A DNA stretch of 64,000 nucleotides from the NCBI RefSeq assembly GCF_900128495.1, contig NZ_LT635801.1, forward strand, positions 1,313,997-1,377,996, given 5' to 3'. The first letter of the stretch is position 1. The number at the start of each line of letters is the position of its first letter. Positions 19,878-48,798 of this stretch are shown in pieces. The DNA is from Bacteroides ilei (GTDB taxonomy: Bacteria; Bacteroidota; Bacteroidia; Bacteroidales; Bacteroidaceae). The position numbers and the translations under genes were made by a program. Under the pieces are notes generated by a model. The model was given only the letters and a program-made list of their open reading frames with translations. It was not told the DNA's origin and made no database searches.

Positions 19878-19884
19878 CATAGCA

Positions 19885-31954: not shown

Positions 31955-32120
31955 CCGCTTGAGGTTTTACGGATGCGGTACACGGCTGTCGGTACAGCTT
32001 CATACGACGGCTTTTCCTGCCAATTACTCTTTCGCAGAAAGGAAGAATTTGCAGGAAATGCACTTCAAGCCGCCGTATCAAGCGCGACAGCAGACCTTTG
32101 CATCTGATAAAACACAACGG
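31955..32120 (-). promoter_or_regulatory. Palindromic leader C (type copy)
   Basis: Core 31972-32104. + strand arms: GATGC/GCATC, GCTGTCG/CGACAGC, CTTCATACGACGGCTT with AAGCCGCCGTATCAAG, TTTCCTGCCAATT with AATTTGCAGGAAA, and apical CTTTC-GCA-GAAAG. GTTTTA/TAAAAC extends the base. GACCTTTG (32093-32100) sits on the 3' arm. Precedes the parB unit. Confidence 0.75.
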
Positions 32121-32307
32121 TGACGGCAGAGAATGAGACCGGGAAAGCGGTAAAGGAATCGGTAGAAAAGGAATATGCCTGTTAGGGTTAGAAAGGGAAT
32201 AAAACGGGCAGCATGCCTGCGCTTGCAGGCAGGTAAAAAAGAATAGGCGGTAAGACTATAAAGGAGGAATGCGCCCTATGGAAACAGCGGGCGGGTAGAA
32301 AAGGACG
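32121..32307. other. Gene-free stretch with AGAAAAGGA/TATAAAGGAGG motifs
   Basis: No gene. Contains GTAGAAAAGGA twice (about 32163, 32296) and CTATAAAGGAGG (32256-32267), the same purine-rich motif that follows other palindromes. Confidence 0.45.
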
Positions 32308-32347
32308 CATGGCTGCCGTCTCCTTGGTGGGGAGACGCTGCAGCCAT
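32308..32347 (-). terminator. Terminator after the parA operon
   Basis: CATGGCTGC.GTCTCC pairs with GGAGAC.GCAGCCATG in a long stem just 7 bp beyond the stop of the 32355-32609 gene. Confidence 0.7.
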
Positions 32348-32354
32348 GATCTTT

Positions 32355-32609
32355 TTACTGTTCGTTCTTTTCCAGGTACTCTTTCATCGCCTCGTTCACG
32401 ATGTCTTTCAGCGACATGTTCTTCTTGATGGCGAGGAATTTCATGCGGTTATGGATGCTCTTGTTGATGATAAAGTTGCAATGGACCGCCGTTTCTTTTT
32501 CCGTGGGGGCTGCTACCGGCTGCTTCCCGCCGGTAGATTTTTTCGTGGGCGACAGCAACCCGTCCAGTCCGCCCTTCATGCTGTCTTTCAGTAAATCGCT
32601 CTTGCTCAT
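32355..32609 (-). CDS. Ribbon-helix-helix-like partition partner
   Basis: 84 residues. The last 45 residues (VHCNFIINKSIHNRMKFLAIKKNMSLKDIVNEAMKEYLEKN, in turns) match a CopG/ribbon-helix-helix fold, the DNA-binding partner often paired with ParA on plasmids. The N-terminus is flexible and basic. It starts 7 bp after parA stops, so they form one operon. It probably binds the nearby AT-rich palindromes. Confidence 0.7.
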   Translation of the reverse strand: MSKSDLLKDSMKGGLDGLLSPTKKSTGGKQPVAAPTEKETAVHCNFIINKSIHNRMKFLAIKKNMSLKDIVNEAMKEYLEKNEQ

Positions 32610-32615
32610 ATCGGG

Positions 32616-33371
32616 TTATTTTAATTTCAGTACCTCTTGTGCCAGAGCCATGTAGTCCTTAGCTCCGTTGCTGTTCTTGCTATACTCGAAGATGTTCTTG
32701 CCCTTTATAGGCGCTTCGGCCAAAGATACATTGTCCCGTATAACGGTCTTGAACACCTTGTCGCAGAATGAATCCTTGACGAGTTCGGCCACGCTCTTGT
32801 TCAGCGTCTTACGTTTGTCAAACTGCGTAATGACGATACCGCCAATGGCGAGTTTCGGGTTCAAGCGTTCCTGGACGGTGGTAATCACGTTCATGATCTT
32901 GGCCATGCCGCGCATAGCGAGGAACTGTGCCTGTACCGGGATAATCAGGTAGTCTGCCGCAGTAAGGGCGTTCAGTGTCAGCAATCCCAGCGAGGGCGGA
33001 CAGTCGATAAGGATATAATCGAATTTCCGGTGATCGAGCGATTTGGCTATCAGCCCGCTCAATATCAGTTCCCGTCCCGGCTCGTTGATGAGTTCGGCCT
33101 CGGCAGCCGAGAGATCGAGACAAGACGGTACGACGGTAACACCTCCTGCCGTTTCAACTAACGGCAAGGGGTATTTGCCTTTCATCGCCCCGTACACGGT
33201 CTGTTCCTCCTCAATGGAGAGGCCGAAGGATTCCGTGAGATTTGCCTGACCATCCATGTCGATAGCCAGCACGCGCTTTTTCTTTTGCTGCAAGGCCGCA
33301 GCCAGATTGATGGTGGTGGTCGTCTTTCCGACCCCGCCTTTATGGTTTAGAACCGCAATTATTTTTGTCAT
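32616..33371 (-). CDS. parA: ParA partition ATPase
   Basis: 251 residues. The deviant Walker A is HKGGVGKTTTTINLAAAL (residues 10-27), the A' motif is AIDMDGQANLTESFG, and Walker B is YILIDCPPSLGLLT near residue 120. It has ParA/Soj length and no N-terminal HTH, so autoregulation would depend on a partner. The AT-rich palindrome array immediately upstream (33398-33510) is the likely operator or centromere. It helps keep the ICE when excised or replicating. Confidence 0.92.
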   Translation of the reverse strand: MTKIIAVLNHKGGVGKTTTTINLAAALQQKKKRVLAIDMDGQANLTESFGLSIEEEQTVYGAMKGKYPLPLVETAGGVTVVPSCLDLSAAEAELINEPGRELILSGLIAKSLDHRKFDYILIDCPPSLGLLTLNALTAADYLIIPVQAQFLAMRGMAKIMNVITTVQERLNPKLAIGGIVITQFDKRKTLNKSVAELVKDSFCDKVFKTVIRDNVSLAEAPIKGKNIFEYSKNSNGAKDYMALAQEVLKLK

Positions 33372-33397
33372 AACATATTGCCTTTAAATTCAATACA

Positions 33398-33510
33398 AAG
33401 ATAATACTATTTTTAGTAATTACTAAATTTAGTATATACTAATTTACTACAATATATCATTTTAGTATATTAGTATTATAGTATTTACTATTATACTAAA
33501 TATAGTATAT
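33398..33510. promoter_or_regulatory. TAGTA-type palindrome array upstream of parA
   Basis: TTTAGTAATTACTAAA is a perfect 16-bp palindrome (about 33411-33426), followed by TTAGTATATACTAA and several half-sites (TAGTATT, TTTACTA, TATAGTAT) over 110 bp. The spacing and location suit ParA-operon operators or a parS-like site. The same motif recurs at 40428-40510. Confidence 0.6.
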
Positions 33511-33623
33511 GCTATACAGTAAGGCAGATTTGCTCTGTACTACAGTACTTTTTAAATGCAAGAATTAAGTGTATTCTTCAGAAAAAATCCTTCGAGTACA
33601 CTTTACAGATGAGTACAAAAAAA

Positions 33624-33665
33624 CAAGAGAATCCATAGCAATTATTGTAGCAATAGATTCTCTTG
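33624..33665 (-). terminator. Terminator of the 33.7-39.9 kb cargo operon
   Basis: CAAGAGAATC (33624-33633) and GATTCTCTTG (33656-33665) are perfect inverse complements, with TTTTTTT downstream on the - strand. Confidence 0.8.
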
Positions 33666-33745
33666 TCTAATAAGGCTTGGTTTATTTATCAGCAAATTTC
33701 AAATGAGAAAGGGTCAGAAAGTAAATCAATAGATATTTTACAAAT

Positions 33746-35500
33746 TTACCAATACTCGATGGTTCGTTTCTCTGTATATTCTTCTGGAGCAGTATATTCA
33801 TCGCCGACATAGTTCCCATTGTCATCATACTTATCGTATTCGGTGGTGTAGCTTACCTTCCGCTCTATCCAATTCTTGTGCTTGTCGAACTTGGTATAGG
33901 TATAGCGATAAGTGGTGTTACCTTCTTCCGGGTGCTCCTGTATCATCGTGGCCGGGTATTTGCTGTCACCTTCATAGCTGTATTTCCAAGTGACGTATGC
34001 CATGTGCGAAGTAAACTGATGACTGATGATACGATTGCGCTTATCAAACATATAGGTCTGGTCAAGTTCCGTGTTGGTATCAGCATCTGGACAAATATCC
34101 GTCCGCATACCATCTTTTGATTCGATGTTCACCACATAATCTCCCCATCCCTCCACTTTATAGGAAGTAGCTGTGGCATATTGATAGGCCGCTTCGTCTC
34201 CGAACTTGTTCTGCATGGCAATCAGATTGCCCGCCTGGTCAAATTTGAGTGATTCCTCATTGCCGTTTACCGACTTGACTTTACCGGACAACCCATAAAT
34301 ATCCGTTCCTTTGTAGCGTAAACTACCCATTAGGGCAGGTTGACCGTTTTCTTTTGCAGCTTTCATGGAAGCAATCGTTTCATCGTCCCAGTAATCAATG
34401 CTGCGGACAACTGTCAGGCTGGGAGCCTCACCCGCTTTGACAGCAGAAGAACGATCCCGATTCGATGTAAATCCGTCTCTGAAAGCCTTATAGTAGGTAC
34501 GCAATGCAGGTATCTCATCGATGTTAGCCGGGAATGTAACGGTAGCTTGTGTCCAGTTTCCTTTTTCATCATATACATAATCGTAGGAGACGGTAAACGT
34601 CATGTCATCCACCCGCCAGTTGTTGCCTTTACTTTTATATACACCTCCGCTATACGTCCAAGTAGCCAAGTCTCCGTGTGAGTTATACGCAAAGCTGCTG
34701 GTACAAGTCAGTGTTTCGTTCCCCCCGTCAAATTCAACGGGAATCTTCTCTACGGCTTGTGTGCACAGATGGCCTGTATAGACATAGGTTGTCACCGATT
34801 GTCCTGTCTTGTAACTGTCGATGTCTTTCAAGAACATGTTCGTGGTCTTCGGTGTTTCAAAAGACTTCAAGTGAGCGAGCGAGTCAAACTGCATCTCATG
34901 AAGCGTCACGCCCGATTCATTGACCGTGCCATTCTTTTTTTCGGGCAGGATGGATTGCAATACCCCATTACCGTGATAGGCATACAGAAAAGTGGTTGTG
35001 TCATAATGTCCCCGCCCGTTCTTGTCGCGACGTATCAACCGACCTGCACTGTCGTATGTGAAGCCGTCATCTTTTTTCCGGCGTTTGTAACGTCCGTCAT
35101 CTACCGATTTGATTTGGGTCAGATTGGAATTGCCGTTATATTCATACGAAATGACATCAAATCCGGTTGCACCCACATTGAAAGAAGTGCGCCGCTGTTC
35201 GGACAAACGGCCGTTAGGCAAGAACTCGTATTGCGAGGTGCTTGTCACACCCCATTGTGCATTGTGGTATTCGTAGGTGACCAGCTTCGGATAGTTGCGC
35301 AATCCCATCTTTGCCCAATCCGTAGGATAGTTTACGAAATAAGGCATCAGATGTTCCGCATTCATATCCACTCTTACCGGATCAAAATACACCTGAAGCG
35401 GTGTATAAGGCTGGTTGCTTTCTTCACTGCCACAGCTTGCTGCTCCTATCGACAGCAAGCAAGAAAGACCGACAGCTTGTATGGTCTGTAATGCTTTCAT
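33746..35500 (-). CDS. Exported lipoprotein with YD/RHS-like repeats
   Basis: 584 residues. Signal peptide and lipobox (LLSIGAASC, Cys near 23). The body has repeated YEYN, YDSAGRLIRRD, YNSHGDL and YDEKGNW units, the YD-repeat pattern of RHS-like beta shells but with few, irregular copies. Probably a surface lipoprotein. Last gene of a six-gene leftward cargo operon with AT-richer composition than the tra genes. Function unknown. Confidence 0.75.
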   Translation of the reverse strand: MKALQTIQAVGLSCLLSIGAASCGSEESNQPYTPLQVYFDPVRVDMNAEHLMPYFVNYPTDWAKMGLRNYPKLVTYEYHNAQWGVTSTSQYEFLPNGRLSEQRRTSFNVGATGFDVISYEYNGNSNLTQIKSVDDGRYKRRKKDDGFTYDSAGRLIRRDKNGRGHYDTTTFLYAYHGNGVLQSILPEKKNGTVNESGVTLHEMQFDSLAHLKSFETPKTTNMFLKDIDSYKTGQSVTTYVYTGHLCTQAVEKIPVEFDGGNETLTCTSSFAYNSHGDLATWTYSGGVYKSKGNNWRVDDMTFTVSYDYVYDEKGNWTQATVTFPANIDEIPALRTYYKAFRDGFTSNRDRSSAVKAGEAPSLTVVRSIDYWDDETIASMKAAKENGQPALMGSLRYKGTDIYGLSGKVKSVNGNEESLKFDQAGNLIAMQNKFGDEAAYQYATATSYKVEGWGDYVVNIESKDGMRTDICPDADTNTELDQTYMFDKRNRIISHQFTSHMAYVTWKYSYEGDSKYPATMIQEHPEEGNTTYRYTYTKFDKHKNWIERKVSYTTEYDKYDDNGNYVGDEYTAPEEYTEKRTIEYW

Positions 35501-35506
35501 GTTCCG

Positions 35507-36811
35507 TTATTTTTGATTTGTTGGATGATTTTCCTTGCAGGGGACCTGCTTGGTGACAGGATGATAAGAGATATTCCAGACGGGATAAGCTCCGACCTTA
35601 TCTACACAGCACGAATACAGATAACAGTTCCCGTGTATCGAACTTTCCGAACCCAGCAATCCGGAGATGTATTTGCATCCTTTTCCCGACACAATGATTT
35701 TGCCTTCATTCACCACCTGATGGAAAGAGGAACCTCCGAAACTGCCGATTACTCCTCCGATGGCGGAAAATTCAGCCAGCAGGTCATGCTTGATTTCGAT
35801 GTTGCCTGCATTGTACAGATCCAACGGATAGATTCGTTCGTAGTTGTGAGGTGTCAGTTCGCCACATACCCCTCCGATATTAAATGTAGCAGATGTATTC
35901 TGTGTGTCCAAGCGGATGTTTCCCCAATTATGGAGATGCTCTATATCAGTTTCATTGGTTTTGAAAAGTCCGACAACACCACCGATGTAGCTATGATCAG
36001 GTTGGGCATCGGCCTTCCACTGCACGGTCAAATCGCCTTTATTCTCGACGCAGACATTCTCTTTGATAAAGATTTTACCATAATTGGTGGCCCTCCCGAT
36101 GACTCCACCTATGTAGGCATCACTGCACGGATTAACGGTGAGGTTGCCCTCATTGATTACCTTGCCACGCAAAGCCACTTCCACTTCGGAGCCGTAGCTA
36201 TCCAGGTCTCCGACAAGTCCACCCAGACAGAGTGTACAGATACCCTTATTGTCAGCGAATGAGATATCCACCTTGCTGGTACAATTCTTGATACACCCAT
36301 TCTTGAACTTTCCCGCCAGAGAACCGGCAAGCAGGCTATAACCGTCTTCTCTCTTTTGAGCGTCGATGGTCATGTCACCTGCCAATGTCAGATCCTTGAC
36401 CACAGCTTCTTTTTCACCACCCATTTCTTCAAACAGACCGACATCAAATACTCCTTTGGAACTCTCTTCAATGACCACCCGTATTCCGTCGAAGGTAATG
36501 GTATGTCCGTTGCCGTCGAACTCCCTAACCGGGAATTTAATCGGTGTCCATTCACCGCTGATTTCGATGTCCTTCACCAGTTTAATCCGCACTTCATCTG
36601 CTGGAATCTCCCTGCCTGCATCGGTGAGCAGCGTTTGTGCTTCCATGTTTTTATCCTTGATTTCGAACGTTTCGTTCAGGAAACGCAGTTCACTCTCTTT
36701 TCCGATTTCAAATACCTGTTCCGCCTCGTTGAAATGCAAGGCGGTGACTTTCTCTTCACACGATGTCAGCCAAAAAGGCAGGCAAGCGACAAGGTAAACC
36801 ATTCTTTTCAT
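35507..36811 (-). CDS. Exported lipoprotein with GLUG-type repeats
   Basis: 434 residues from the ATG at 36811 (MKRMVYLVACLPFWLTSC). Lipobox LTSC at residue 18. From about residue 170 it has repeats of IGGVVGLF, IGGVIGRA, IGGVCGEL and IGGVIGSF spaced by about 35-45 residues, the GLUG motif of beta-helical adhesins. An opening segment like FDGNGHTITFDGI also fits right-handed beta-helix proteins. Likely surface-exposed. Confidence 0.75.
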   Translation of the reverse strand: MKRMVYLVACLPFWLTSCEEKVTALHFNEAEQVFEIGKESELRFLNETFEIKDKNMEAQTLLTDAGREIPADEVRIKLVKDIEISGEWTPIKFPVREFDGNGHTITFDGIRVVIEESSKGVFDVGLFEEMGGEKEAVVKDLTLAGDMTIDAQKREDGYSLLAGSLAGKFKNGCIKNCTSKVDISFADNKGICTLCLGGLVGDLDSYGSEVEVALRGKVINEGNLTVNPCSDAYIGGVIGRATNYGKIFIKENVCVENKGDLTVQWKADAQPDHSYIGGVVGLFKTNETDIEHLHNWGNIRLDTQNTSATFNIGGVCGELTPHNYERIYPLDLYNAGNIEIKHDLLAEFSAIGGVIGSFGGSSFHQVVNEGKIIVSGKGCKYISGLLGSESSIHGNCYLYSCCVDKVGAYPVWNISYHPVTKQVPCKENHPTNQK

Positions 36812-36824
36812 GATGCTGCTCTTT

Positions 36825-37721
36825 TTACATATCTGCTGCATAATTCTCGCCCTCCATGATAAACATTCCCGACTCTTTCCAGTAATACACCACATAAGGC
36901 TCTACTTTCGACATTTCATTGATGTCCTGCGTGGGCATTCCACTAAAATAGGTAAAGACCAGTGCGTTACCCTCTATTTTTCCGGCATACGACTCCACGC
37001 TTGACATAGGAATGCTTTCACCTTGTGGAGGATACATGGTCGTTTTGACCATAAAAACTTGTTCTCCTTTCTTTTCCAGTGTGAAAGATATTAAGCCGTT
37101 GGCATAACTTTTTGTAAAGGCTGATTCTGGGATGGTATTATCTTTCAAGTAAAAAGCATACTCCGGAGAAATATATCCGATACGTTTGTCTTGGGCAGAA
37201 AGCTCTACCTTGAACCATCCCTTTTCTTTCCCCAAGAATCTGAAACTTTGTCCACGGTTGGCTTTCATTAAAGGACTACCCGATACAGGGGTGGAACGGA
37301 CATTGATTTTATCTCCTCCACTGATGAATACATAGTTACATTTATCTTTCTGCTTAAACACTACCGGCTCTGAACCGGGTGGCAAGAAGGACAGTTCCTT
37401 CGTGGTGGGATTGTACTTGAACTCCGCTTTTTGTTTTCCCATACTGCTTTCTACGGCAACCGAAGCCTCTGTATTATCAATGTGATAGACGTCTACAATA
37501 CTATAGGCAAGCCCATAGCCTCCTTCAAACACATTGTAAGCACCGTAACTGCCATCTGTCGGTGTGTTGTACAGGTCTATTTCCAACTGAATCTGGCTGT
37601 TGCCTTTCCAATATTCCCATTTGCCCACAAAGGGTTTTGTGTCATCTGCTTGTATAGACGCGTGTACACTCAAGAAGCCACAAACAAGGCTTATCAAACT
37701 TAGGCATATCAATTTTTTCAT
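36825..37721 (-). CDS. Exported protein with SH3-like domain
   Basis: 298 residues with a signal peptide (LICLSLISLVCGFLSVHA). An SH3_3-like domain lies near residues 135-190 (INVRSTPVSGSPLMKANRGQSF, then FLGKEKGWFKVEL and GYISPEYAF). The N- and C-terminal parts are beta-rich and unknown. Such bacterial SH3 domains bind cell-wall peptides. Middle of the cargo operon. Confidence 0.72.
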   Translation of the reverse strand: MKKLICLSLISLVCGFLSVHASIQADDTKPFVGKWEYWKGNSQIQLEIDLYNTPTDGSYGAYNVFEGGYGLAYSIVDVYHIDNTEASVAVESSMGKQKAEFKYNPTTKELSFLPPGSEPVVFKQKDKCNYVFISGGDKINVRSTPVSGSPLMKANRGQSFRFLGKEKGWFKVELSAQDKRIGYISPEYAFYLKDNTIPESAFTKSYANGLISFTLEKKGEQVFMVKTTMYPPQGESIPMSSVESYAGKIEGNALVFTYFSGMPTQDINEMSKVEPYVVYYWKESGMFIMEGENYAADM

Positions 37722-37747
37722 TATGCTGTTGCTTTATATGGTTAAAA

Positions 37748-38608
37748 TTAAAGACTAAAAGTGACATATACGGCAGACTGTACCCGTACAGGCTGTCCGT
37801 CTTTGATTCCGGGTGTCCATTCCTTTAAGGACTTGACCACTCTTACGGCTTCGGTATTGAGATTGGCATGAACCTTTTTCACAGCCGTAACATCAGATAC
37901 CGAACCGTCTTTCTCCACTATAAAGGAAACAAGCACGTCGCCCTGAATCTTCTGCTGTTTGCAGATCATGGGATAACGTATGCTTCGGGCAATATCCGCC
38001 AGCAATGCTTGGTTTCCACCGGGGTATTCCGGCTCCTTATCCACCTCGCTGCCTTTGTACACCTTATTGGGGCTTACCTTGGATTGTGCCGGTTCTCGTC
38101 TATCTTCCTTCGGAGTGGTTGGCATACCAAATCTTCTTTCGGGAGTATCTTTGTCTGTTTCTTTTTGCTCTTCCAGTTCCTGTTGTAATATTCTTTGCAA
38201 CACTTCACTGGAGATAAGAAAACCGTTAAACTTGGAAGGAGCGTACCCGGAGAATGCCGATACCACTTCGAAACTGAATGTTTTTCCCTCCTCGATACGT
38301 GGGAAATAATAAGTGCCCGCTGTTTTTATCCGATTGCCCGGCATCAGGTAGAACAAGTCTATGGGCAAACTGCGGCTTGTCTTCTGTGCCACTCCCTTTA
38401 TCTGAAATTTATAGCCGCCATTGGCGCGTCCCGTACAAGTAACGCTGGTAACATGCCAATAACGATCCACTCCGGCATCGCATTTGAACGGCACATTTAC
38501 CGGATAACTCTTGGGAGGAATGGAAAAACTTGTTTGCGCAAAAGTCGCATGACTCATGAAAAATACCCCTAAGACAATGAGGCATAGTAAAATAGATAAT
38601 CGCTTCAT
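37748..38608 (-). CDS. Exported protein with TonB C-terminal domain
   Basis: 286 residues with a signal peptide (LLCLIVLGVFFMSHATFAQ). A beta-rich N-terminal half is followed by a linker and a TonB_C domain from about residue 200 (EYPGGNQALLADIARSIRYP, GDVLVSFIVEKDGSVSDV, VVKSLKEWTPGIKDGQPV). There is no N-terminal membrane anchor typical of energising TonB, so it is probably a periplasmic or outer-membrane TonB-domain protein. A shorter paralogue follows upstream. Confidence 0.8.
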   Translation of the reverse strand: MKRLSILLCLIVLGVFFMSHATFAQTSFSIPPKSYPVNVPFKCDAGVDRYWHVTSVTCTGRANGGYKFQIKGVAQKTSRSLPIDLFYLMPGNRIKTAGTYYFPRIEEGKTFSFEVVSAFSGYAPSKFNGFLISSEVLQRILQQELEEQKETDKDTPERRFGMPTTPKEDRREPAQSKVSPNKVYKGSEVDKEPEYPGGNQALLADIARSIRYPMICKQQKIQGDVLVSFIVEKDGSVSDVTAVKKVHANLNTEAVRVVKSLKEWTPGIKDGQPVRVQSAVYVTFSL

Positions 38609-38638
38609 ACGTATATCGTTTTATAGTTTTTAGATTCA

Positions 38639-39067
38639 TCAGAGTTTAAACGTGATAGGCAGAGTGTATTCCACATTTACCGGTTTGCCATCCTGTGTAC
38701 CGGGAATCCAACGAGGCATGGACTTCACTACGCGGACAGCTTCCTTATCCAAATAAGGATCTACAGACTTGGTAACACGAATATTTGAGATAGAGCCATC
38801 GCTCTTGACTGTAAATTTCACCAACACTTTGCCTTGTATTTTCTGTTCCTTGCAAACTGTCGGATACTTTAGATTCTTTGATAAAAATTGTACCAATGCG
38901 GTGATACCACCGGGAAATTCCGGAGACACCTCTCTCTTGTTCTGGGAAACTTTTGCCATCGAAGGCAAATCATTGATAGTTCTTGCCTCATTTGCAGCCT
39001 GTGTATCCAAACAATTGCCAATCAGCAGTGCGGATAGTAAACTGCTCAAAATAATTTGTTTTTTCAT
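38639..39067 (-). CDS. Short exported TonB C-terminal-domain protein
   Basis: 142 residues: signal peptide (IILSSLLSALLIGNCLDTQA) then an almost bare TonB_C domain (EFPGGITALVQFLSKNLKYP, GKVLVKFTVKSDGSISNI, WIPGTQDGKPVNVEYTLP). A close relative of the C-terminal half of the adjacent 286-residue protein, so a tandem duplication is likely. Confidence 0.8.
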   Translation of the reverse strand: MKKQIILSSLLSALLIGNCLDTQAANEARTINDLPSMAKVSQNKREVSPEFPGGITALVQFLSKNLKYPTVCKEQKIQGKVLVKFTVKSDGSISNIRVTKSVDPYLDKEAVRVVKSMPRWIPGTQDGKPVNVEYTLPITFKL

Positions 39068-39108
39068 ACAGTTTTATTGTTTAATTATCAATACGTTACA
39101 TTATTCAT

Positions 39109-39942: not shown

Positions 39943-39949
39943 AAATTAA

Positions 39950-40145: not shown

Positions 40146-40203
40146 AAGCATAACGCTTCTTTCTTTTCTAATATGTCTTGGAAAGAGTTTCCTCAATCCG
40201 GCA

Positions 40204-40211
40204 CAAAGGTA
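40204..40211 (-). promoter_or_regulatory. -7 box of the cargo operon
   Basis: TACCTTTG on the - strand is a perfect TAnnTTTG, about 262 bp before the first cargo gene. The duplex promoter points in the direction of the genes, as expected for ordinary transcription, in contrast to the palindromic leaders. Confidence 0.65.
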
Positions 40212-40427
40212 GTGAAATTTCATGAAACAGGACCTTATATACCGTGATTTTCTTAAAGTTAGGAGTGGATTTTAAGTCTATTGTGCTAAAACCAATATTA
40301 AATAAACTGCAAGAAAGACAAATCTATTAAATAATGGGCTAACATTTTCTGAAAAACTCTGTAAGGATAGAAAAAATGTTTGAGATGTATGAACTCTTAA
40401 GAAAGGACGAAACTAAAAAACAAAAAT
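40212..40427. other. AT-rich gap, no gene seen
   Basis: Between the cargo promoter and the TAGTA array. Low complexity AT-rich DNA, no credible frame, probably the junction of the cargo insertion. Confidence 0.5.
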
Positions 40428-40510
40428 ATAGTATCTACTAATTTTAACAAGAATAGGTTTACTAATTTCCTATTTTACTATGATTAGTAAATACTATATT
40501 TAGTATCTGC
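40428..40510. promoter_or_regulatory. Second TAGTA-type palindrome array, beside ssb
   Basis: TAGTATCTACTAAT, TTTACTATGATTAGTAAATACTA and TTTAGTATCTG repeat the motif found before parA at 33.4 kb. The two arrays bracket the 7 kb cargo block, as if one array had been split or duplicated by the insertion. Confidence 0.5.
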
Positions 40511-40535
40511 TTATTTTCAGATAGTTGTTATCTTA

Positions 40536-40949
40536 TCAGAAGGGCAAATCCTCCTTTTCGTCCTGCGGGAAATCGGCGGGAGGAACGGGTGCGCTGTCTG
40601 CACCGTTTACATCGTTGTCCGCTCCGGCTGCCGCACCCTCGCGTTTTCCGGTATTGATAAAGGCAATGCTTTCTGCCGTGATGGAGAGCTGTATTTGGCT
40701 CTCGCCATTCTTGTCTTTCCACAGGGAAGATGACAGCGTACCGTCAACGAGTATGAGTCTTCCTTTCGTCAGATATTCGGACAAATGGATATGGTTGTCC
40801 TTGTTGCTACGTACCCTTATCCAAGTGGTAGTGTTTTGTCCTCTTGAATAATCGTCAACGGCTATGTCCATAGCCATGAATGAGCCGTGTACTCCTGAAA
40901 TAACCTGGCAATCTTTGCCGATGCGTCCGATAGTGTGAACATGTAACAT
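40536..40949 (-). CDS. ssb: Single-stranded DNA-binding protein
   Basis: 137 residues: OB-fold SSB (MLHVHTIGRIGKDCQVI, TTTWIRVRSNKDNHIHLSEYLTKGRLILVDGTL) and a flexible tail ending in the acidic tip EKEDLPF, which recruits replication proteins. ICE- and plasmid-borne ssb in leading regions coat incoming DNA and suppress SOS. It is the sole gene behind palindrome D, a key reason to see these palindromes as early-entry controls. Confidence 0.92.
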   Translation of the reverse strand: MLHVHTIGRIGKDCQVISGVHGSFMAMDIAVDDYSRGQNTTTWIRVRSNKDNHIHLSEYLTKGRLILVDGTLSSSLWKDKNGESQIQLSITAESIAFINTGKREGAAAGADNDVNGADSAPVPPADFPQDEKEDLPF

Positions 40950-41039
40950 AATAGAAAATTGTTTGTGGCAAGGTGGTTGGTCCTGCCGTTACCTAACTGT
41001 TTATTTTTTCCCTTCTTTCGGTTCCTTTCTCTGCCTGAA

Positions 41040-41203
41040 CCGTTCCGGGATTTTATAGATGCGGTACATGGCTGCCGGTAGAGCTTTATGCGACGGCTTT
41101 TCTTGCCAATTACTCTTCGTAGAAGGAAGAATTTGCAAGAAATGCACTTCAAGCCGCCGGATCAAGCGCGGCAGCCGACCTTTGCATCTGAAAAACCGGA
41201 CGG
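41040..41203 (-). promoter_or_regulatory. Palindromic leader D, upstream of ssb
   Basis: Core 41058-41188. GATGC/GCATC, GGCTGCC/GGCAGCC, GACGGCTT/AAGCCGCC, TTTCTTGCCAATT with AATTTGCAAGAAA, apical CTTC-GTA-GAAG. CCG..CCGG/CCGG..CGG extends the base. GACCTTTG (41177-41184) lies on the 3' arm. Compared with C, the GCTGTCG/CGACAGC pair has become GCTGCCG/CGGCAGC and CCT/AGG has become CTT/AAG: both sides changed. Confidence 0.75.
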
Positions 41204-41332
41204 CGATGGCAGAGAGGAGACCGTAGAGGTTATATCTATAACTGATATAAAGGGAAGAGGGCTTCGCCAAAGTATAAGAGCAGAGGGAAAGAGAGAGGTA
41301 TAAAAGGAAGCCGCCAACGGAGTTGCGGTATT

Positions 41333-41392
41333 TATAAACGGATATCGTGCCCTCCGCCAATGGTGTTGCCATAGGCACGATTCCCGTTTATA
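41333..41392 (-). terminator. Terminator of the 41.4-41.9 kb gene
   Basis: TATAAACGG with CCGTTTATA and inner ATCGTGCC with GGCACGAT form a long perfect-arm stem, 25 bp beyond the stop. Confidence 0.7.
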
Positions 41393-41416
41393 GCCTATTT
41401 TGACCGGGCCGGTATC

Positions 41417-41863
41417 TCAAAGAGAGGAAGGCAGCAAATCCCCCATCCTCTGTTCCGGCATAGTGCAAAATCCCCGAACGATAGTAGCTCCGTTTACACC
41501 CTCAAGTCTGGCGAACATTTGCAACGCGTCAAATCCACAGTCGAACTGTTCCATGCTGACAGCGGGGGCAAAATGAACAATACCGTGGGGATAGCTCTTC
41601 GAGACACCTATCCACCCACGCAAATAATCATCGAAGCGTCCTTCTGCTTTTGAGGCGTAGAACTCTTGCGAATGGGAGCTGCAAATACTTTTGCCGTACA
41701 TTTCATCTCCTAAAATCAAAGTGCCTGTTTGCGGGTTATACATAAAACGCCGATTGGTTATCTGAAGAATATCTATGATTTCCCGTTTGACGTCGATAAC
41801 CATCAGGATTTTTTCAACCTGCCGTTTTGTGCGTTTGCCTGTTTTACAGTTTTTCTTGTCCAT
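41417..41863 (-). CDS. Uncharacterised leading-region protein behind palindrome E
   Basis: 148 residues from 41863 (MDKKNCKTGKRTKRQVEKIL); an internal ATG at 41803 (MVIDVKREIIDIL) is possible. Basic N-terminus, then alpha/beta with NPQTGTLILGDEMYGKS and AVSMEQFDCGFDALQMFARL. No signal or membrane segment, no known motif. Monocistronic unit with its own leader and terminator. Confidence 0.65.
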   Translation of the reverse strand: MDKKNCKTGKRTKRQVEKILMVIDVKREIIDILQITNRRFMYNPQTGTLILGDEMYGKSICSSHSQEFYASKAEGRFDDYLRGWIGVSKSYPHGIVHFAPAVSMEQFDCGFDALQMFARLEGVNGATIVRGFCTMPEQRMGDLLPSSL

Positions 41864-41926
41864 CTCTTGTCTTTTATGTGAAACATCTGTTTTTTACCCT
41901 TTTTTCGGTTCTTTTCTCTGCTTGAA

Positions 41927-42092
41927 CCGTTCCGGGATTTTACAGATGCGGTACACGACTGCCGGCAGGGCTTCATACAGCGGTTTTCCCGGCCAATTAC
42001 TCTTTCGCAGAAAGGAAGAATTTGCAGGGAATGCACTTCAAGCCGCCGGATCAAGCGCGGCAGCCGACCTTTGCAGTTGGAAAATCGGACGG
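41927..42092 (-). promoter_or_regulatory. Palindromic leader E
   Basis: Core 41945-42077. CTGCCGG/..CGGCAG, CTTCATACAGCGG with CCGCCGGATCAAG, TTCCCGGCCAATT with AATTTGCAGGGAA, apical CTTTC-GCA-GAAAG. The inner arm reads TTCCC/GGGAA where C has TTCCT/AGGAA and D has TTCTT/AAGAA, a three-way compensatory series. GACCTTTG (42067-42074) on the 3' arm. Confidence 0.75.
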
Positions 42093-42613
42093 CAACGGCA
42101 GAGAAGAGACGGGAACGGTCCGGAAAGTATGACGGTAAAAGGGGGTACGGCCTTGCCGGATATAAATGCAGGAGAAAATGAAGTAGAAAAGAGTGCGGCT
42201 TGGGCGGGTCAGGCAATGGTCTGCCGGGGCAAACATGAAAGGGATTCTCCTTATCCGTCCCACGCCTGAATTTCGACCGAGCGGAATGAAAGCGCGGGGC
42301 GGATAAGAAGTATCGCCGTTTGCCCTTGACGTGGCAGGTCACAAGGGAAAGATACGGAACAGAGGCGGAAAGTCCGAAACCAGCGGCATAAAGACCGGTC
42401 GGGCTGTGGAATACCGTGTTGTTTCGACAGGTCGAAGCTCCGGCATGGAACGGCACGATCCGGGCTGCCGCCGGTTTTGAACGGGCCTCCCGTACCTTTC
42501 CCTGACGACTTGTTACGGCACAGACTTTCCACTGGTTCACGGGTTGGGAAAGCCGGTATATAATGGGGAAACAGCCTGAAGGTAAAAAAGGAGGAAGCCT
42601 CGTTTTGAAAAAA
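42093..42613. other. Gene-free stretch, about 520 bp
   Basis: Longest gap between palindromic units. Short frames on both strands look like chance. Purine-rich motifs (GGTAAAAGGGGG near 42132, GTAGAAAAG near 42184, GGTAAAAAAGGAGG near 42582) recur. A rightward non-coding RNA from the E box could span it. Confidence 0.45.
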
Positions 42614-42617
42614 TGAC

Positions 42618-42636
42618 CGCCGCAGCTATGGCGGCG
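42618..42636 (-). terminator. Terminator of the acidic-protein gene
   Basis: CGCCGC-AGCTATG-GCGGCG hairpin; on the - strand it is followed by TCATTTTTTC, 42 bp beyond the stop codon. Confidence 0.6.
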
Positions 42637-42677
42637 ATCCGTCATCATTGGCATGTGATGAGCAGGTTACATTTTGG

Positions 42678-43076
42678 TTATTCGTCTTCGTAGTATGGTA
42701 TGCCATGCCTTACCACTGTCTTTTCCATTTCTTCCCACCAGACTTCACTATGGCGGTCGTCGTCAAAATCTATGGATTCATTGTCACCGAGCCGCAGCCT
42801 GTCGCGTGTCTCCATTTCCGTTTCAAACACGATCTGTTCCATCTGTTCGTCCGTAACATGACAGGTGTCGAATGGTTCCGGCAAGGATTCCAGTTCCCGG
42901 CGGGAGAGTTCGGATTTGCCGCAAACGAAAACCTTGTCGTAGAAAGCGTCCTCTTTCGGCGGCAGTTCGGGGTCTTGTTCCGGCAGCATGTCCGGACAAT
43001 CTGAATCGTACAGGTGGTTCTCGCCGCGTTCCTGCGTCTGCCGGTTGTTTTCAAGCTCATACATTGTAAGTTTCAT
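42678..43076 (-). CDS. Strongly acidic small protein (candidate DNA mimic)
   Basis: 132 residues with 38 Asp/Glu against 14 Lys/Arg. Acidic patches are spread along the chain (YDSDCPDMLPEQDPELPPKED, ESIDFDDDRHSEVWWEEME). No signal or membrane helix. Overall charge and size resemble anti-restriction DNA mimics such as ArdA, which are typical leading-region products, but I see no ArdA sequence motif. Monocistronic behind palindrome F. Confidence 0.6.
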   Translation of the reverse strand: MKLTMYELENNRQTQERGENHLYDSDCPDMLPEQDPELPPKEDAFYDKVFVCGKSELSRRELESLPEPFDTCHVTDEQMEQIVFETEMETRDRLRLGDNESIDFDDDRHSEVWWEEMEKTVVRHGIPYYEDE

Positions 43077-43234
43077 TTTTTGAATTATTTTTATGGGTTA
43101 TACAAGTTATTTATTCACGTGGGCGTATCTTTTGTAATTTCTTTCCATGTTTCAATTTGTTTTTAAGTTTTTATTTCCCTCGGTTCGAACGATTACAGGG
43201 AGGGAAGTCCGATGCTTTTTTCTGCCTCGTCTTT

Positions 43235-43349
43235 GCATCATAGGATTTGCGGCAAGGATTCCATGAAAAATACGCTTGGAATGAAATGAGAAGGAAGATT
43301 TTTCATCAGGAAAATCGAAGATGGGCCTTGCGGCAAAGTTTTGAGATGC
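43235..43349 (-). promoter_or_regulatory. Palindromic leader F (diverged)
   Basis: Sequence differs widely from A-E but the plan is kept: GCATC/GATGC at the base, CAAGG/CCTTG, TTCC/GGAA, ATGAAAAAT/ATTTTTCAT, then an apical ACGCTT...AAGGAAG loop like copy A. AAGTTTTG (43336-43343), again nAnnTTTG, sits at the 3' base. Confidence 0.6.
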
Positions 43350-43600
43350 AATCAACTTTGCGGGAAAAAAGTGTCGGGCTTTGCGGTCGTCGGTCCGTGA
43401 TGGTAACTCAATCTACAAGAGGTGGAAGCAGAAGTCTGCTTATAAAAAGGAGTATGATATAAAAGGAGTCATCGGAGGTACAAGGGGCAGATTCCGCTAC
43501 AACCGGGTATGGCCGTCGGCAGACCGTAAGGTGAAAAAAATCCCCCTGCCCAGTCATTGTGAACTGAACAGAGGGAAAAGGTTAAATTTATGAATTACGG
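43350..43600. other. Gene-free stretch right of palindrome F
   Basis: Carries TATAAAAAGGAG (43441-43452) and ATATAAAAGGAG (43457-43468), a tandem pair of the motif that follows other palindromes. No credible gene. Confidence 0.45.
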
Positions 43601-46600
43601 TCAGGCCGCTTTGTCGCCGGCCTCGTGTCCGGAAAGGACTGGCTGCGTGCGTTCCGCCTCTTTCATGCTTTCGTCAATCCGGTGCTGTAAAGCGTTGCAC
43701 TCCTGTTTGAGCCTTGCCAACTCGTCCGCCTTGCTCCACTTACGGGCTATGATTGTCTCTAAGGTAGGTATCTCGCTCTCCAGCTTGGCTATCTTCTGCC
43801 GTTGTTCCTCAATCATGCCGGGCAGCTTTTCAAGGGCGGCTTGCGGGTATCGGGAGGATTCCACGAAGCCCAGAGGCAATGCTCCCGATATGCCGCAACG
43901 GTATTTCAGCCCGCTTACACCCTCGACGAGGAACGTGTTGCGGTAGAATGTACCGCCCATGTCATATTCACTGTACACCGACAGGTTCAATCCGGCATAC
44001 GTGCCTATCGTGCTGATTGCCCCGTTGCGGTAGGTTTTGGAAATGCGGTGCAGTTCCCGTCCGGTCTCTTCCGCCGTAGCTTGTGCGAGGTTCAACAACC
44101 GGGTCGTCCGGTCTCCGGTGTAAGAGGTGATATACTCCCAGTCCTGTGTCATGCGTTCTGCCGCACTCTCGGCCTTTATCATATCTTCCTGATTGGCGGC
44201 TATCTTGCGTTCGGCCCTGATGCGGTCTTTCTTGAAAATGGCCTGTTCCTTTTCGAGCTGCATAATCTTGTTGTCGAGTTTTGTTTTCTCCAACAGGTCG
44301 GTATTTCCCGACAAGAGAGCCACGAACTCGGCGAAGTTCATGCCGTTGTCCTCGTCCATAGCGTCCTCGTCGATACGGCGCACGGCAATCGTGCCGTTGT
44401 TGATTTGGTTAATGAACATCTGCTTGTTCTTCAACAGGTTAAACTTGTAAGCGTCGAGTGTCTTTTCAGTGCCATAAATCACCACGTCCACAGTGTTGTT
44501 TCCCCAGAGCTTGACGGTGTTGCCCTTGCGTACCGCCCTGCCGTTGCGCTGTTCCATGTCAGCGGGGCGCCAAGGTATCTCCAGATGATGCACCGCCACG
44601 GCCCTTTCCTGTGCGTTCACTCCCGTTCCCAACATCGAGGTAGAGCCGAACAACACCCGTACCCTGCCACTGTTCATGTCCGCAAAGAGTTTCTTTCTCG
44701 CCCGTTCGGTCTTGGCGCACTGGATAAACTGGATTTCATCGGCAGGAATCCCCATAGCCACCAGTTTGTCCTTGATGTCGCTGTAGATGTTCCACTCGTT
44801 CGGCTTGTAGGTGGAAAGGTCGCTGAAGACGAACTGTGTACCCCGGTTGGCGGTCGAACGCACGTAGTAGTCGTAGATTGTCCGTGCGCAGATAGAAGCC
44901 TTGTTGTTCCCGTCGTCGCCGAACTTGTCGCCCAACAAGCGCATATCGAGGGACATCTTGCGTGCCACGTTGGTAGCGACAAGCATTTTTGCCTTGTCGA
45001 GATTGTCCGGTTGCGGAATATCCAACCCCAAATCTTCCCATTGTCCGCTGTGTGCAAAGGCGACGAGCCGCCCGATCATTTCCTCTTGTTGGATAGTGGG
45101 CGCACTGGAAAGGAAACGCACGTTTTTGTCCGGCACGTCGAGGTTTATCATGTCGGCGGTACGATAGTCGGTAATCTCCCGCAGGAACATCGCCAGTTCC
45201 GGCACTTTGATATAAGTACGGAAACGCTCTTTGCGCTTTATCGTACCCGTTACGTTCAGCTCGTAATCAGCGGTCTTTTTCGTGAAGATAGCCGCCCAAG
45301 CGTCGAAACAGCTTACTTGTTGCCGTTTGAGTTCCCTCGGACGCAGGTATTTGAACATCACGTACAGTTCGGTCAGCGCATTTACGACCACCGTACCGGA
45401 AAGGAACGTAGCCCCCAAGTCCTTTCCCGTGCGGCGTTGAATGTCCCGAATGGCAAACAAAAGGTTCATCGCCCTTTGCGAGCCTTGTGCGTTGCCGATA
45501 CCCGCTACTCTCGTGTGGCGTGTCTGGAACATCAGATTTTTATAGCAGTGGCATTCGTCCACAAATATGTGGTCTATGCCCATCAAGCGGAAATCGACGG
45601 TATCGTCTTTCCGGCGGTCTATCTTCATCTGCAGTTCGGCGAGCTTGGCTTTAAGGTTCTGTTTCCGGGTTTCCAGTCCTTTCTGCATTCTGCCGCTCCG
45701 GTAGCGCATGGTGGACTGTTCCAACACTTCGAGGCTGCGCTCCACGTCGGCCAGTTCTTCCGAGAATATGTCGTACATGGTTTCTTCGGACTGCGGAATC
45801 TTGCTGAACTGGTCGTGTGTCAAGATAATACAATCCCAGTTATTGTTCTTGATCTTTGAAAATACCTCTTTGCGGTTGGCAGGGGTGAAATCTTCCTTGC
45901 CCGGATAGAGCACCTTGGCTGCGGGATATGCCTTGCGGAACGTGTCGGCAATCTCGTGCACGTTGGCTTTCAGTCCGATAATGAGAGGCTTCTGAACCAT
46001 TCCGAGACGTTTCAACTCATAAGCGGCCACGCACATAATCATCGTCTTGCCCGTGCCGACCTCGTGCCAACAGATACCGCCGCCGTTCTGCTTTATCATC
46101 CAAATGGCGTCCTTTTGCGACGGATAGAGGCTGTCGTAGGAGAACTGCTCGAAAGAGAGGCCGGGGAATGTCTGCGCCGAGCCGTCGTAGTGCGGACGCA
46201 CGTAACAGTTGAAACGCTCGTTGTATGTCCTTACCAGTTCGTCCCGGACTTCCAAAGGCTCGTTGTCGAGCCACTGGTTGAAACGTTCTCTGATTTCCTG
46301 TATCTTGGCGGCGGCTTCCTGTATGGCTTCCTCGTCCGGTACTCGTACCTTGCTGCCATCCCGGTATTCCTCTCTCGTTATTTCGGGAACGGTATCGTGC
46401 AGGGCGTGTACAAACAAGTCCTCGCCGTTGTAGCTGCGCACGGAATAGGTATTGTATGCCACAGGCGAATATCCCTGCAGCCGAATCAAGTAAGTGTCGT
46501 TCACGTCGAAATACATCACGTTCGCACCCACTCCGAAGAGTTCGGAAGCAAAATCGGCGTACAGTTTCGTATCTATCCACCGCTCGCCCATGTTGATGTC

Positions 46601-48577
46601 GAGTTCTTCATAGGGTATCGGTTCGGGTATGGCGTTCTCCAGTGCCTTTGCAGACGCTTCGACCCATTCTTTCTCCTTTCCGGTGAGGTCAGGGAGAAAT
46701 GAAAGTGTCTCTTGCTGCTTGGCTATGACATTTCCGGCAAGGAACTTCCCTTTGTGCTCCCATTCTCCGGCTGCCGGATTGTAGAAGATTTCCCCTTGCA
46801 GGGCTTCGATGATTTCTTCTTCGTCCTTGCCTGTGGCTTGTGCCATGTAGTCCATATCGACCTTGCCGTAAAAGTTCAGACTGCTTGCCAGAGCTTCTAT
46901 TGGTGTGAGCGTTTCCGTGTCGTTTATCTTTTTGAAAGCAACGGGTTCACGCATGATGTCGGCTTTGAAGATGTCCCTGCCGACCTGCATTTCTATCGTG
47001 AACACCTCCGTACCGAGACTGTCGAGCATGATAAACTCCTTGTTGTCGTTATCGTGGAAGAATCCCCATTTGGCAACAAAGGCGTCATATAGGGCATTGA
47101 GTTGTTTACGGAACTCCGGGTACTCCTTTTGTTCTTCCCGTTCCCTGCCGGACAGCTCGAAATACGCCTTGCGTATGGGGAAATAGTCGGCGGCCCTGTC
47201 CGTGTTTACCTTGCCATCGTCCACCGGCACGAAATCGACGGCTGTCTCCGTGTAACGGCTCGACTTGCGGAACCGGAGCGTACCTACCTGCCCCTCGAAA
47301 ACGACCATTGCGCCGTTCTTCATCCATGTTTCCATGTCCTCTGTGTAGGCACGTATGCCTTTGGCTGTCTGCGGCTCGCCGAAAAGAGACATCTGTACGG
47401 GGGCGTTGTCTTGGCCGTGACCGCCGAAAAGAGCCTTGCGAAAATAGCGGTCGAAATCGTATTTGAGCAGTGCGGAAAGGTATTGGGACATGGCGTTTTC
47501 ATCGCCTAACCACTGGTATTTGCGAACGTACTTTCCGAACTGGTTCAGCGCAATGCGACTGTCCGTGGCAAGGGCGGTCTTGGGGAGGGTAAAGATTTTA
47601 TTCGCATAGTCGGTCATTGTTCCTGCCGTGTCGGCCTTTTCCTTGGAGACCTGCAAAAACATCTTCTCCCGTAACGAGAGGGTCGCCTTGCGGCTGTGTT
47701 TCTGGAATATCAAGAGGTCGCTCCCTACCTCTATGCCACTTGTCTGCATGAAAAGGGTATCGGGCAGCCGTAGGGCCGTTATGAGGTCGGCATGGTTGAC
47801 GAGGTACTCGCGCACGAACTTGTTGCCCGGTGTGTCGGCAATTCCTCTCGGCGCAACGAACGCCAGTAGGCCGCCCTCGTTCAACAGCTCCATTGCCTTG
47901 ACAAAAAAGTAGTTGTGTATGGTCTTGGCTGACTGTTCGTACATGCCGCCTTTCTTCCACATTTCCGCATCGAATACCCGGAAATTGCCGAACGGGATAT
48001 TCGAGGCGATAACATCGAAGCTCCCATGCTCCAGATGCTGGTCGGCTATCGTCTCGAAACCTGCCGTTACCGTGGTTGTCTTATCATGCAGAAGCGACAG
48101 GATAAGTCCCGTAAGGCAATCTTTTTCAAAGGCGTAACCGCGAGTGTCGGGCATGGCGACGGGCAGAAAACCGCCGATTCCCGCACTGGGTTCGAGAAAG
48201 GTGCGCATTTGCAGGCCGTTATCCATGAATGTGGCGTGTATCTGCCGGGCTACTGCGTCTATGAGGAATTTCGGCGTGTAAAAAGCGGTCAGGACGGAGG
48301 ATTTTATACTGTCGATGACGGCTTGCCGCATGGCATCGTCATAATAAGGATATGCTTCTATCAGGTCTTGCAACCTGTGGATATGCTCGGCCACATCATT
48401 GCTGACGGTGTGTTCCGTTCCTATGCTCAACACGTCTTTAATACCCCCGAAACCGGAATATCGGGATAATACCTCTTTCTCTTGGTCGGTGGCCTGTCGG
48501 TCGTCGATACGGATTTTCATTGCCGTTGCAATGGCTTCCACGTTTGCCACCAGTGATTTCAATTTGTTGTAACTCAT
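43601..48577 (-). CDS. Giant DNA methylase-helicase (DarB-like, SNF2/DEAD)
   Basis: 1,658 residues. The N-terminal methylase-like domain has AdoMet motif EPSAGIGGF (129-137) and NIPFG (193-197), an NPPF variant. The helicase has HEVGTGKTM near 837 (Walker A), VDECH near 1005 (Walker B) and QRNGRAVRKG near 1341 (motif VI). The end is a long coiled coil. The architecture matches large methylase-helicases of mobile elements, including the P1 anti-restriction protein DarB, by layout. It is the largest leading-region gene and sits behind palindrome G with a good -7 box. Likely protects entering DNA; mechanism not proven. Confidence 0.85.
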   Translation of the reverse strand: MSYNKLKSLVANVEAIATAMKIRIDDRQATDQEKEVLSRYSGFGGIKDVLSIGTEHTVSNDVAEHIHRLQDLIEAYPYYDDAMRQAVIDSIKSSVLTAFYTPKFLIDAVARQIHATFMDNGLQMRTFLEPSAGIGGFLPVAMPDTRGYAFEKDCLTGLILSLLHDKTTTVTAGFETIADQHLEHGSFDVIASNIPFGNFRVFDAEMWKKGGMYEQSAKTIHNYFFVKAMELLNEGGLLAFVAPRGIADTPGNKFVREYLVNHADLITALRLPDTLFMQTSGIEVGSDLLIFQKHSRKATLSLREKMFLQVSKEKADTAGTMTDYANKIFTLPKTALATDSRIALNQFGKYVRKYQWLGDENAMSQYLSALLKYDFDRYFRKALFGGHGQDNAPVQMSLFGEPQTAKGIRAYTEDMETWMKNGAMVVFEGQVGTLRFRKSSRYTETAVDFVPVDDGKVNTDRAADYFPIRKAYFELSGREREEQKEYPEFRKQLNALYDAFVAKWGFFHDNDNKEFIMLDSLGTEVFTIEMQVGRDIFKADIMREPVAFKKINDTETLTPIEALASSLNFYGKVDMDYMAQATGKDEEEIIEALQGEIFYNPAAGEWEHKGKFLAGNVIAKQQETLSFLPDLTGKEKEWVEASAKALENAIPEPIPYEELDINMGERWIDTKLYADFASELFGVGANVMYFDVNDTYLIRLQGYSPVAYNTYSVRSYNGEDLFVHALHDTVPEITREEYRDGSKVRVPDEEAIQEAAAKIQEIRERFNQWLDNEPLEVRDELVRTYNERFNCYVRPHYDGSAQTFPGLSFEQFSYDSLYPSQKDAIWMIKQNGGGICWHEVGTGKTMIMCVAAYELKRLGMVQKPLIIGLKANVHEIADTFRKAYPAAKVLYPGKEDFTPANRKEVFSKIKNNNWDCIILTHDQFSKIPQSEETMYDIFSEELADVERSLEVLEQSTMRYRSGRMQKGLETRKQNLKAKLAELQMKIDRRKDDTVDFRLMGIDHIFVDECHCYKNLMFQTRHTRVAGIGNAQGSQRAMNLLFAIRDIQRRTGKDLGATFLSGTVVVNALTELYVMFKYLRPRELKRQQVSCFDAWAAIFTKKTADYELNVTGTIKRKERFRTYIKVPELAMFLREITDYRTADMINLDVPDKNVRFLSSAPTIQQEEMIGRLVAFAHSGQWEDLGLDIPQPDNLDKAKMLVATNVARKMSLDMRLLGDKFGDDGNNKASICARTIYDYYVRSTANRGTQFVFSDLSTYKPNEWNIYSDIKDKLVAMGIPADEIQFIQCAKTERARKKLFADMNSGRVRVLFGSTSMLGTGVNAQERAVAVHHLEIPWRPADMEQRNGRAVRKGNTVKLWGNNTVDVVIYGTEKTLDAYKFNLLKNKQMFINQINNGTIAVRRIDEDAMDEDNGMNFAEFVALLSGNTDLLEKTKLDNKIMQLEKEQAIFKKDRIRAERKIAANQEDMIKAESAAERMTQDWEYITSYTGDRTTRLLNLAQATAEETGRELHRISKTYRNGAISTIGTYAGLNLSVYSEYDMGGTFYRNTFLVEGVSGLKYRCGISGALPLGFVESSRYPQAALEKLPGMIEEQRQKIAKLESEIPTLETIIARKWSKADELARLKQECNALQHRIDESMKEAERTQPVLSGHEAGDKAA

Positions 48578-48619
48578 AATTTAACCTTGTTTTTGTTTCC
48601 CTCTGTTCGGCCTGTTTGC

Positions 48620-48798
48620 GACCGCAGGGATTATTTTTCTGCCCTTTGAAGGTGGCAGGGACAATCGAACAAGGCTGAAGCGAAAAAATACGCTCGACAA
48701 CGGAGAGGAAGATTTTTACGCCTCACTCGCGGCGTAGCCGGCATTGGCAGGATTGGAACTGCCGGATACCTTTGCGGAAAAATAATACCCCGCAGGTC
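48620..48798 (-). promoter_or_regulatory. Palindromic leader G, best promoter match
   Basis: Base arm: GACCGCAGGGATTATTTTT with AAAAATAATACCCCGCAGGTC. Inside: GGCAG/CTGCC, CAATC/GATTG, GGCT/AGCC, GCGAAAAAAT with ATTTTTACGC, apical CGCTC..GAG. On the 3' arm, TTGG (48744-48747), 19 nt and TACCTTTG (48767-48774) form a near-consensus Bacteroidetes promoter that points away from the methylase-helicase gene in duplex DNA. Confidence 0.7.

Follow-up and report, generated by a model that had tools for sequence, protein, structure and literature searches.

Nine palindromes, spread from 25.8 to 50.2 kb over a 64,000-nucleotide stretch of the Bacteroides ilei genome (contig NZ_LT635801.1; G000:C1:1313997-1377996, here called the window), each stand ahead of a leftward gene, ssb and a DNA methylase gene among them. 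The window is part of a 119-kb integrative conjugative element, and judging from the sequence we consider it quite probable that the palindromes are single-stranded DNA promoters of this element. By anatomy, the best reading is that they are Bacteroidetes-type analogues of Frpo, which folds as single-stranded DNA so that its -10 and -35 boxes are restored, and from which the leading genes of F are expressed early (PMC9849209, partial text). The case is less clear for the copies of class I, which are without a -33 element, than for those of class II. Positions given without a locus name are window coordinates, also where the element runs past the ends of the window.

A promoter motif in the 3' arm

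Copies of the palindromes were collected with nhmmer from the window, one further locus of the same genome, 58 loci encoding the methylase/helicase and 11 stretches from further genomes. The search yielded 217 rows, 150 of them distinct, and 22 rows below 23 bits were set aside; removal of near-identical rows reduced class I from 69 to 54 and class II from 59 to 47, so that 101 copies were analysed. A model built from class II copies, R1, gave 59 matches, among which 23 rows chosen by eye constitute class III (alignment A4). Because of this choice, the motif shared by class III is no independent evidence.

The box nAnnTT[T/C]GC is present in the 3' arm of the + strand in 9/9 palindromes of the window. 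The original prediction, which had put a conserved box at the base of the + strand palindrome with the genes leftward, thus stands as to arm and direction and reaches beyond what it had supposed; the base of the palindrome, however, is formed by another stem, which lies below the box.

The consensus for the primary sigma factor of Bacteroidetes is TAnnTTTG at -7 and TTTG at -33 (PMC7366714, partial text). In class II, the motif TTG-N19-22-TAnnTT[TC]G was found on the folding (+) strand in 36/47 copies and on the mRNA-sense strand in 0/47. Shuffled sequences contained it in 0.9 copies on average and in 3 at most, and the bipartite motif of class II is beyond chance. The -33 TTG, whose columns are constant in 46-47 of the 47 copies, pairs with CAA, and two pairs further on there is covariation (GC 31, TA 11, CG 2). 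By sequence and predicted fold both promoter boxes of class II lie in one stem and point into the gene, and they share one stem likewise in the rows chosen by eye for class III. It speaks for the motif that 48 of the 59 class II rows, counted before near-identical ones were removed, were matched by model positions preceding the box only. Among the 59 R1 matches the box is present in 46 and the full bipartite motif in 26, though the model derives from motif-bearing sequences.

In class I the box hardly varies (A 53/54, both Ts 54/54, then T or C, G and C each 54/54), in contrast to a variable opposite arm, an asymmetry that looks as if the non-template strand mainly mattered. The mere presence of the short word nAnnTT[TC]G proves little, because chance yields one in most windows around the copies (shuffle means for a word anywhere in such a window, 40.6/54 in class I and 34.9/47 in class II); its evidential weight comes from the fixed alignment column. 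Several single boxes had to be read anew. Copy B, whose box had been called degraded, carries TTCG, which is no decay, the C variant being found in 17/54 class I and 18/47 class II copies; the box of F, given earlier as AAGTTTTG, is CAACTTTGC at 43353 in the alignment; and the -33 match, once limited to G (N20) and H (N19), extends to an upstream TTG in B' (N18) and F (N22).

Classes I-III also share an apical hairpin, AAATACGCTC..GAGGAAGATTT, which is better conserved than the remaining fold and may be bound by some protein. The palindromes B' and H possess the fold and the box, and the apical motif is absent from both.

Conservation of the fold

In each of the classes I, II and III, 0/500 shuffles, which do not preserve the relatedness of the sequences, reached the real covariation score; for the further-pair-types measure in class I the real value was reached by 16/500. 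With the partner slid by one column, 43-51% of the cells remained paired in classes I and II (87-89% without the slide) and 51-57% in class III (79% without it), in a control that was disfavoured from the outset because the structures had been inferred from the same alignments. Five of the nine palindromes were scored individually as single-stranded DNA: the z-score was -7.7 for B', -5.9 for D, -4.5 for G and -4.4 for H, and only -2.2 for F.

The + strand formed the more stable fold in 37/54 class I copies with RNA parameters and in 38/54 with DNA parameters (44 and 42, respectively, after correction by shuffles), and in 33/48 of class II. This strand difference in folding energy is supportive, though weak alone. 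An RNAalifold consensus of -23.5 on + and -12.8 on - came from one alignment, and we put no weight on it.

Downstream genes and competing explanations

In 53/54 class I and 46/46 class II copies the stem base is followed within 160 nt by the start of a leftward, ATG-started open reading frame (ORF) of 60 codons or more, one of the 47 class II copies being excluded from this count as it has no flank. The median distance from stem base to start codon is 71 nt in class I and 55 nt in class II, and a conserved motif of the predicted 5' untranslated region (5'UTR), with an RNA-like hairpin, lies between palindrome and gene. These features bear on the possibility that the folds serve to prime the second strand, as initiation sites dependent on RNA polymerase (ssi/sso), gene expression being a by-product. 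The anatomy of such sites would be identical, and Frpo is said, in the title of Masai and Arai 1997, to have both roles, promoter and priming. The placement of the copies ahead of genes and the 5'UTR motif argue against this explanation, as does the redundancy for priming of nine copies per 25 kb, and we consider it unlikely. Note that a comparison of left and right genes at the 59 R1 matches, with any start codon allowed, was not discriminating (41 v 33). In an R1 subfamily (L221, L222 and L225), two of the three have no left gene, and it may be something else.

The palindrome might also be a structured leader, a riboregulator or attenuator of a leftward mRNA made from an upstream duplex promoter. 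Its fold is indeed conserved ahead of start codons, and either strand of a palindrome is able to fold. A leader in mRNA-sense RNA would show mostly A.C changes on the + strand, because those are G.U in such RNA. For classes I and II pooled, the pair changes on + led to G.T in 111 cases and to A.C in 74, so that as mRNA-sense RNA the palindrome has more A.C mismatches than G.U, against the ratio of RNase P (p 3e-11). The RNase P control, taken from the same bacterial family (24/30 loci passed the orientation and length filter), had 106 changes to the G.U type and 32 to A.C on the RNA strand. The 5'UTR hairpin to the left of the palindrome, for which the class II pairs were chosen manually, leans by contrast to G.U in the mRNA: it has 16 G.T and 33 A.C on + and differs from the palindrome with a Fisher p of 0.0007. 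As palindrome and hairpin lean oppositely, the polarity switches about at the predicted transcript start. The unpaired columns of the two classes together count 275 to 280; tested against these, the surplus of G.T in the palindrome has p 0.014 and the surplus of A.C in the 5'UTR hairpin p 0.025. The G.T:A.C counts vary by pair set (class I 52:36, 86:53 and 51:34; class II 75:56 and 60:40, and 31:8 for the well-formed pairs of 24 sequences; alignments A2 23:17 and A4 19:10), and the p-values of such change counts are rough because related sequences do not provide independent events. A leader of the Rfam type, for which G.U would be tolerated and A.C not on the mRNA-sense strand, was rejected on this pattern, and a search of Rfam with the palindromes gave nothing at gathering score, with chance-level matches only (E up to 5).

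The duplex promoter that a leader would need is scarce as well. Within 300 nt upstream of the copies a leftward bipartite duplex promoter was found in 0/54 of class I and 0/47 of class II, and a lone leftward TAnnTTTG in just 7/54 and 8/47. In the 250 nt before the start of the putatively fold-driven genes (n=94) there is one TAnnTTTG and no bipartite motif, against 91 and 26 for other genes of the same loci (n=292) and 10 and 6 for opposite-strand genes beyond the palindromes (n=18); for all genes near palindromes, with strands pooled (n=112), the figures are 11 and 6. A leader would, moreover, leave the conserved promoter box unexplained, and we regard it as improbable, even more so than priming sites. 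Least credible of all, and very improbable, are ordinary rightward duplex promoters for antisense or short RNAs or for genes on the right: the class II boxes do fit the full consensus rightward and 6/18 opposite-strand genes beyond the palindrome have a bipartite promoter, but a rightward ATG-started ORF lies within 160 nt in just 10/54 class I and 9/46 class II copies, and neither the covarying fold nor the leftward gene would be accounted for.

The strand transferred to the recipient

A single-stranded promoter would have to lie on the strand that enters the recipient. Directly upstream of the Mob_Pre relaxase gene of the element lies conserved non-coding DNA that is a candidate for the origin of transfer (oriT). 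The sequence GGGTATTAGGC was found upstream of the relaxase gene in 14/30 Mob_Pre loci, whose relaxases are 44-100% identical, some loci being near-identical, and hairpins akin to GGGCAAGCCC were seen by eye in other Mob_Pre loci at relaxase identities down to about 40%. As a rule, the genes of the relaxosome lie to the lagging side of oriT (Samuel et al., PMC11541004, partial text); the + strand would therefore leave rightward, and the leftward genes would read towards oriT. By this rule of thumb the + strand is probably the one transferred.

The R1 model gave 24 matches in the genome of origin at E up to 0.1. It matched at least 25 of 295 genomes of the order, this one included, and at least 4 of 345 in a draw from the phylum, two of which belong to one genus of another family of the class; both counts are lower bounds, since the best 8-9 first-look candidates per genome were scored. 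Among elements with a relaxase gene (PF03432 or PF01076) no more than 50 kb away on the same contig, the motif and that gene occupy opposite strands in 13/16 (p 0.011), as a transferred strand predicts, and in 11/14 (p 0.029) when two elements with E above 0.001 are dropped. The 13 agreeing elements include two partial matches (G456 and G304:C101) and one, G219:C44, with the motif on the 3' side of the relaxase only. In these two partial matches (loci L238 and L257) a related fold is situated about 0.35 kb ahead of the Pfam match of the Mob_Pre relaxase.

Weighing the evidence

The Frpo-like geometry initially proposed is supported by a promoter in one arm, a covarying fold, the scarcity of leftward duplex promoters, the G.T/A.C pattern, leftward genes (99/100) and a strand opposite to the relaxase (13/16). 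Several observations count against it. Class I, to which A-E belong, holds the -7 box alone, where a promoter of the Frpo type would have both boxes: its -33 TTG is found at the correct spacing in 1/54 copies, under the shuffle mean of 5.7. The first T of its box is absent in 36/54, and the loss of this T noted earlier for A-E is a real trait of class I, with 18/54 copies keeping it. Among the palindromes with a -33 TTG, the single-stranded fold of copy F is weak (z -2.2). The surplus of G.T in the palindromes is modest and does not differ from the unpaired columns of class I alone (119 to 98, p 0.31); on account of this, the test is firmer in excluding an mRNA leader than in proving the + strand. 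Three of the 16 elements (G486:C9, G225:C37 and G384:C36) contradict the relaxase rule. Finally, given rightward transfer, A-H sit some 40 kb or more from the oriT-like region with tra genes in between, and would thus be no classical leading region.

On the reading as single-stranded promoters, the + strand, presumably the nicked one, would enter the recipient and fold. Its 3' arm would then present the Bacteroidetes -7 box as non-template strand, with the 5' arm as template, and classes II and III would present the -33 TTG in addition. Host RNA polymerase with the Bacteroidetes primary sigma factor could use this fold as a leftward promoter for ssb, the methylase gene and further genes ahead of second-strand synthesis, with transcripts that begin close to the base of the stem (for G, RNA sense ..AGAAAAATAATCCC..), and conversion to duplex would shut the promoter off. 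The genes would in this way be turned on when the DNA has just arrived in a new cell.

The element and its features

As evidenced by a second genome, G149, which has the stretch from -1265 to 117959 in common with the present one at 99.97-99.99% identity, the element is 119 kb long. A tyrosine integrase lies at its left end, followed by rightward tra genes (TraG, TraM, TraN and a MobC-type coupling protein) and by leftward genes including ParB, ParA, SSB and a 1658-residue N6-methylase/helicase. Beyond these are cargo, an ArdC-like protein and the Mob_Pre relaxase gene at 104008-105525 (-). Three relatives, G033, G080 and G036, keep the main gene order over the extent that was fetched, with some genes absent or relocated. 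Beyond the window, additional palindromes lie at 111.2 kb and 112.4 kb, and the R1 model hits two more sites, one at 117.2 kb and a weak one (E 0.016) at 114.0 kb. The features are collected in Table 1.

Table 1. Palindromes and other features of the element, in window coordinates
Feature	Position	Strand	Details
Coupling protein (Bacteroides MobC type)	19789..22071	+	closes rightward tra cluster
Copy A, class I	25881..26030	+	box CATATTTGC 26009-26017; gene downstream 25616-25816 (-)
Copy B, class I	28386..28551	+	box GACTTTCGC 28531-28539; gene downstream 27858-28334 (-)
Copy B', own type without apical motif	29380..29615	+	TTG 29554 - N18 - TACCTTTGC 29575-29583; DUF4313 gene downstream 28798-29313 (-)
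ParB-family gene	29844..31589	-	part of leftward gene set
Copy C, class I	31950..32113	+	box GACCTTTGC 32093-32101; gene downstream 31629-31892 (-), then parB
ParA-family gene	32616..33371	-	part of leftward gene set
Copy D, class I	41035..41196	+	box GACCTTTGC 41177-41185; ssb downstream 40536-40949 (-)
Copy E, class I	41924..42085	+	box GACCTTTGC 42066-42074; gene downstream 41417-41863 (-)
Copy F, class II	43209..43371	+	TTG 43328 - N22 - CAACTTTGC 43353-43361; gene downstream 42678-43076 (-)
Copy G, class II	48626..48789	+	TTG 48744 - N20 - TACCTTTGC 48767-48775; N6-methylase/helicase gene downstream 43601-48577 (-)
Copy H, own type	49968..50170	+	TTG 50097 - N19 - TACATTCGC 50119-50127; ORF downstream 49679-49903 (-)
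Predicted 5'UTR motif (TTTCCCT..TTCG on +), shown for G	48596..48609	+	also 28360, 29356, 31922, 41007, 41894 (TTACCCT), 43174
Apical hairpin (TACGCTC..GAGGAAGATTT), shown for G	48689..48715	+	also 25942, 28462, 32025, 41111, 41998, 43271
oriT-like conserved non-coding region	105526-105690 (L017)		directly upstream of Mob_Pre relaxase gene

Some further features were noted on the way. Words like TATAAAAGG recur on the far side of many palindromes (28606, 28673, 41245, 41299, 42135 and 43458), and the alignment of class II shows them too. In the region that separates the coupling protein gene from copy A, a DUF805b RNA (RF02914) scores above the gathering cut-off at 24414-24449 (-), and a direct repeat, ACGAACGACCGAAATC, occurs at 24105 and 24514, both in one long intergenic region. 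Clusters of the palindromic repeat TAGTA..TACTA adjoin parA (33405-33514) and the far end of a 7-kb block of other genes (40424-40516); they are possible partition or operator sites. The element also contains a group II intron reverse transcriptase (L015:7408-9255).

Comparison with known single-stranded DNA promoters

Single-stranded DNA promoters have so far been described, as far as the partial texts go, for elements found through similarity to Frpo or through E. coli-type boxes. The 2024 survey relied on similarity to known Frpo and on the E. coli -35/-10 consensus (PMC11541004, partial text), and would miss a Bacteroidetes consensus because these were what it searched for. No word starting with Bacteroid occurs in the main text of that survey (Samuel et al. 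2024, PMC11541004) or in the partial text of PMC12826799, and among the searched papers since 2024 that name Frpo, none is on Bacteroides, judged by title. The original prediction knew of no counterpart in Bacteroidetes, and a literature search that left out preprints and most subscription papers likewise turned up no single-stranded DNA promoter of Bacteroides. What we describe is likely a new, Bacteroidetes-type variant of such promoters. On balance we favour the wider view that conjugative elements of Bacteroidetes own an independently evolved class of single-stranded DNA promoters for the Bacteroidetes primary sigma factor, present in multiple copies per element and in various element types throughout the order, by which scattered establishment genes would undergo zygotic induction from the incoming strand. 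If this is true, expression from incoming single-stranded DNA is a more general strategy that has arisen with an unrelated promoter consensus. It would then help to account for the establishment of Bacteroidales conjugative elements in gut bacteria, and establishment and anti-defence genes without assigned function would be flagged for testing by the folded motif.

In Frpo and Frpo2 of F and in the single-stranded promoters of ColIb-P9, a hairpin on the transferred strand likewise rebuilds both boxes before ssb and establishment genes (PMC9849209 and PMC11541004, partial texts). The palindromes described here belong to another phylum, have a -33 TTG and a -7 TAnnTTTG instead of -35 and -10 boxes, and are likened to these promoters by anatomy alone. 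They differ further in their conserved apical hairpin and 5'UTR motif and in their number and place, with nine copies in the window, most of them far from the candidate oriT. The anti-defence islands of leading regions (Samuel et al. 2024) contain, as does this element, genes for a single-strand-binding protein, a methylase and proteins of the antirestriction type, and they are oriented towards oriT, as is predicted here (PMC11541004, partial text).

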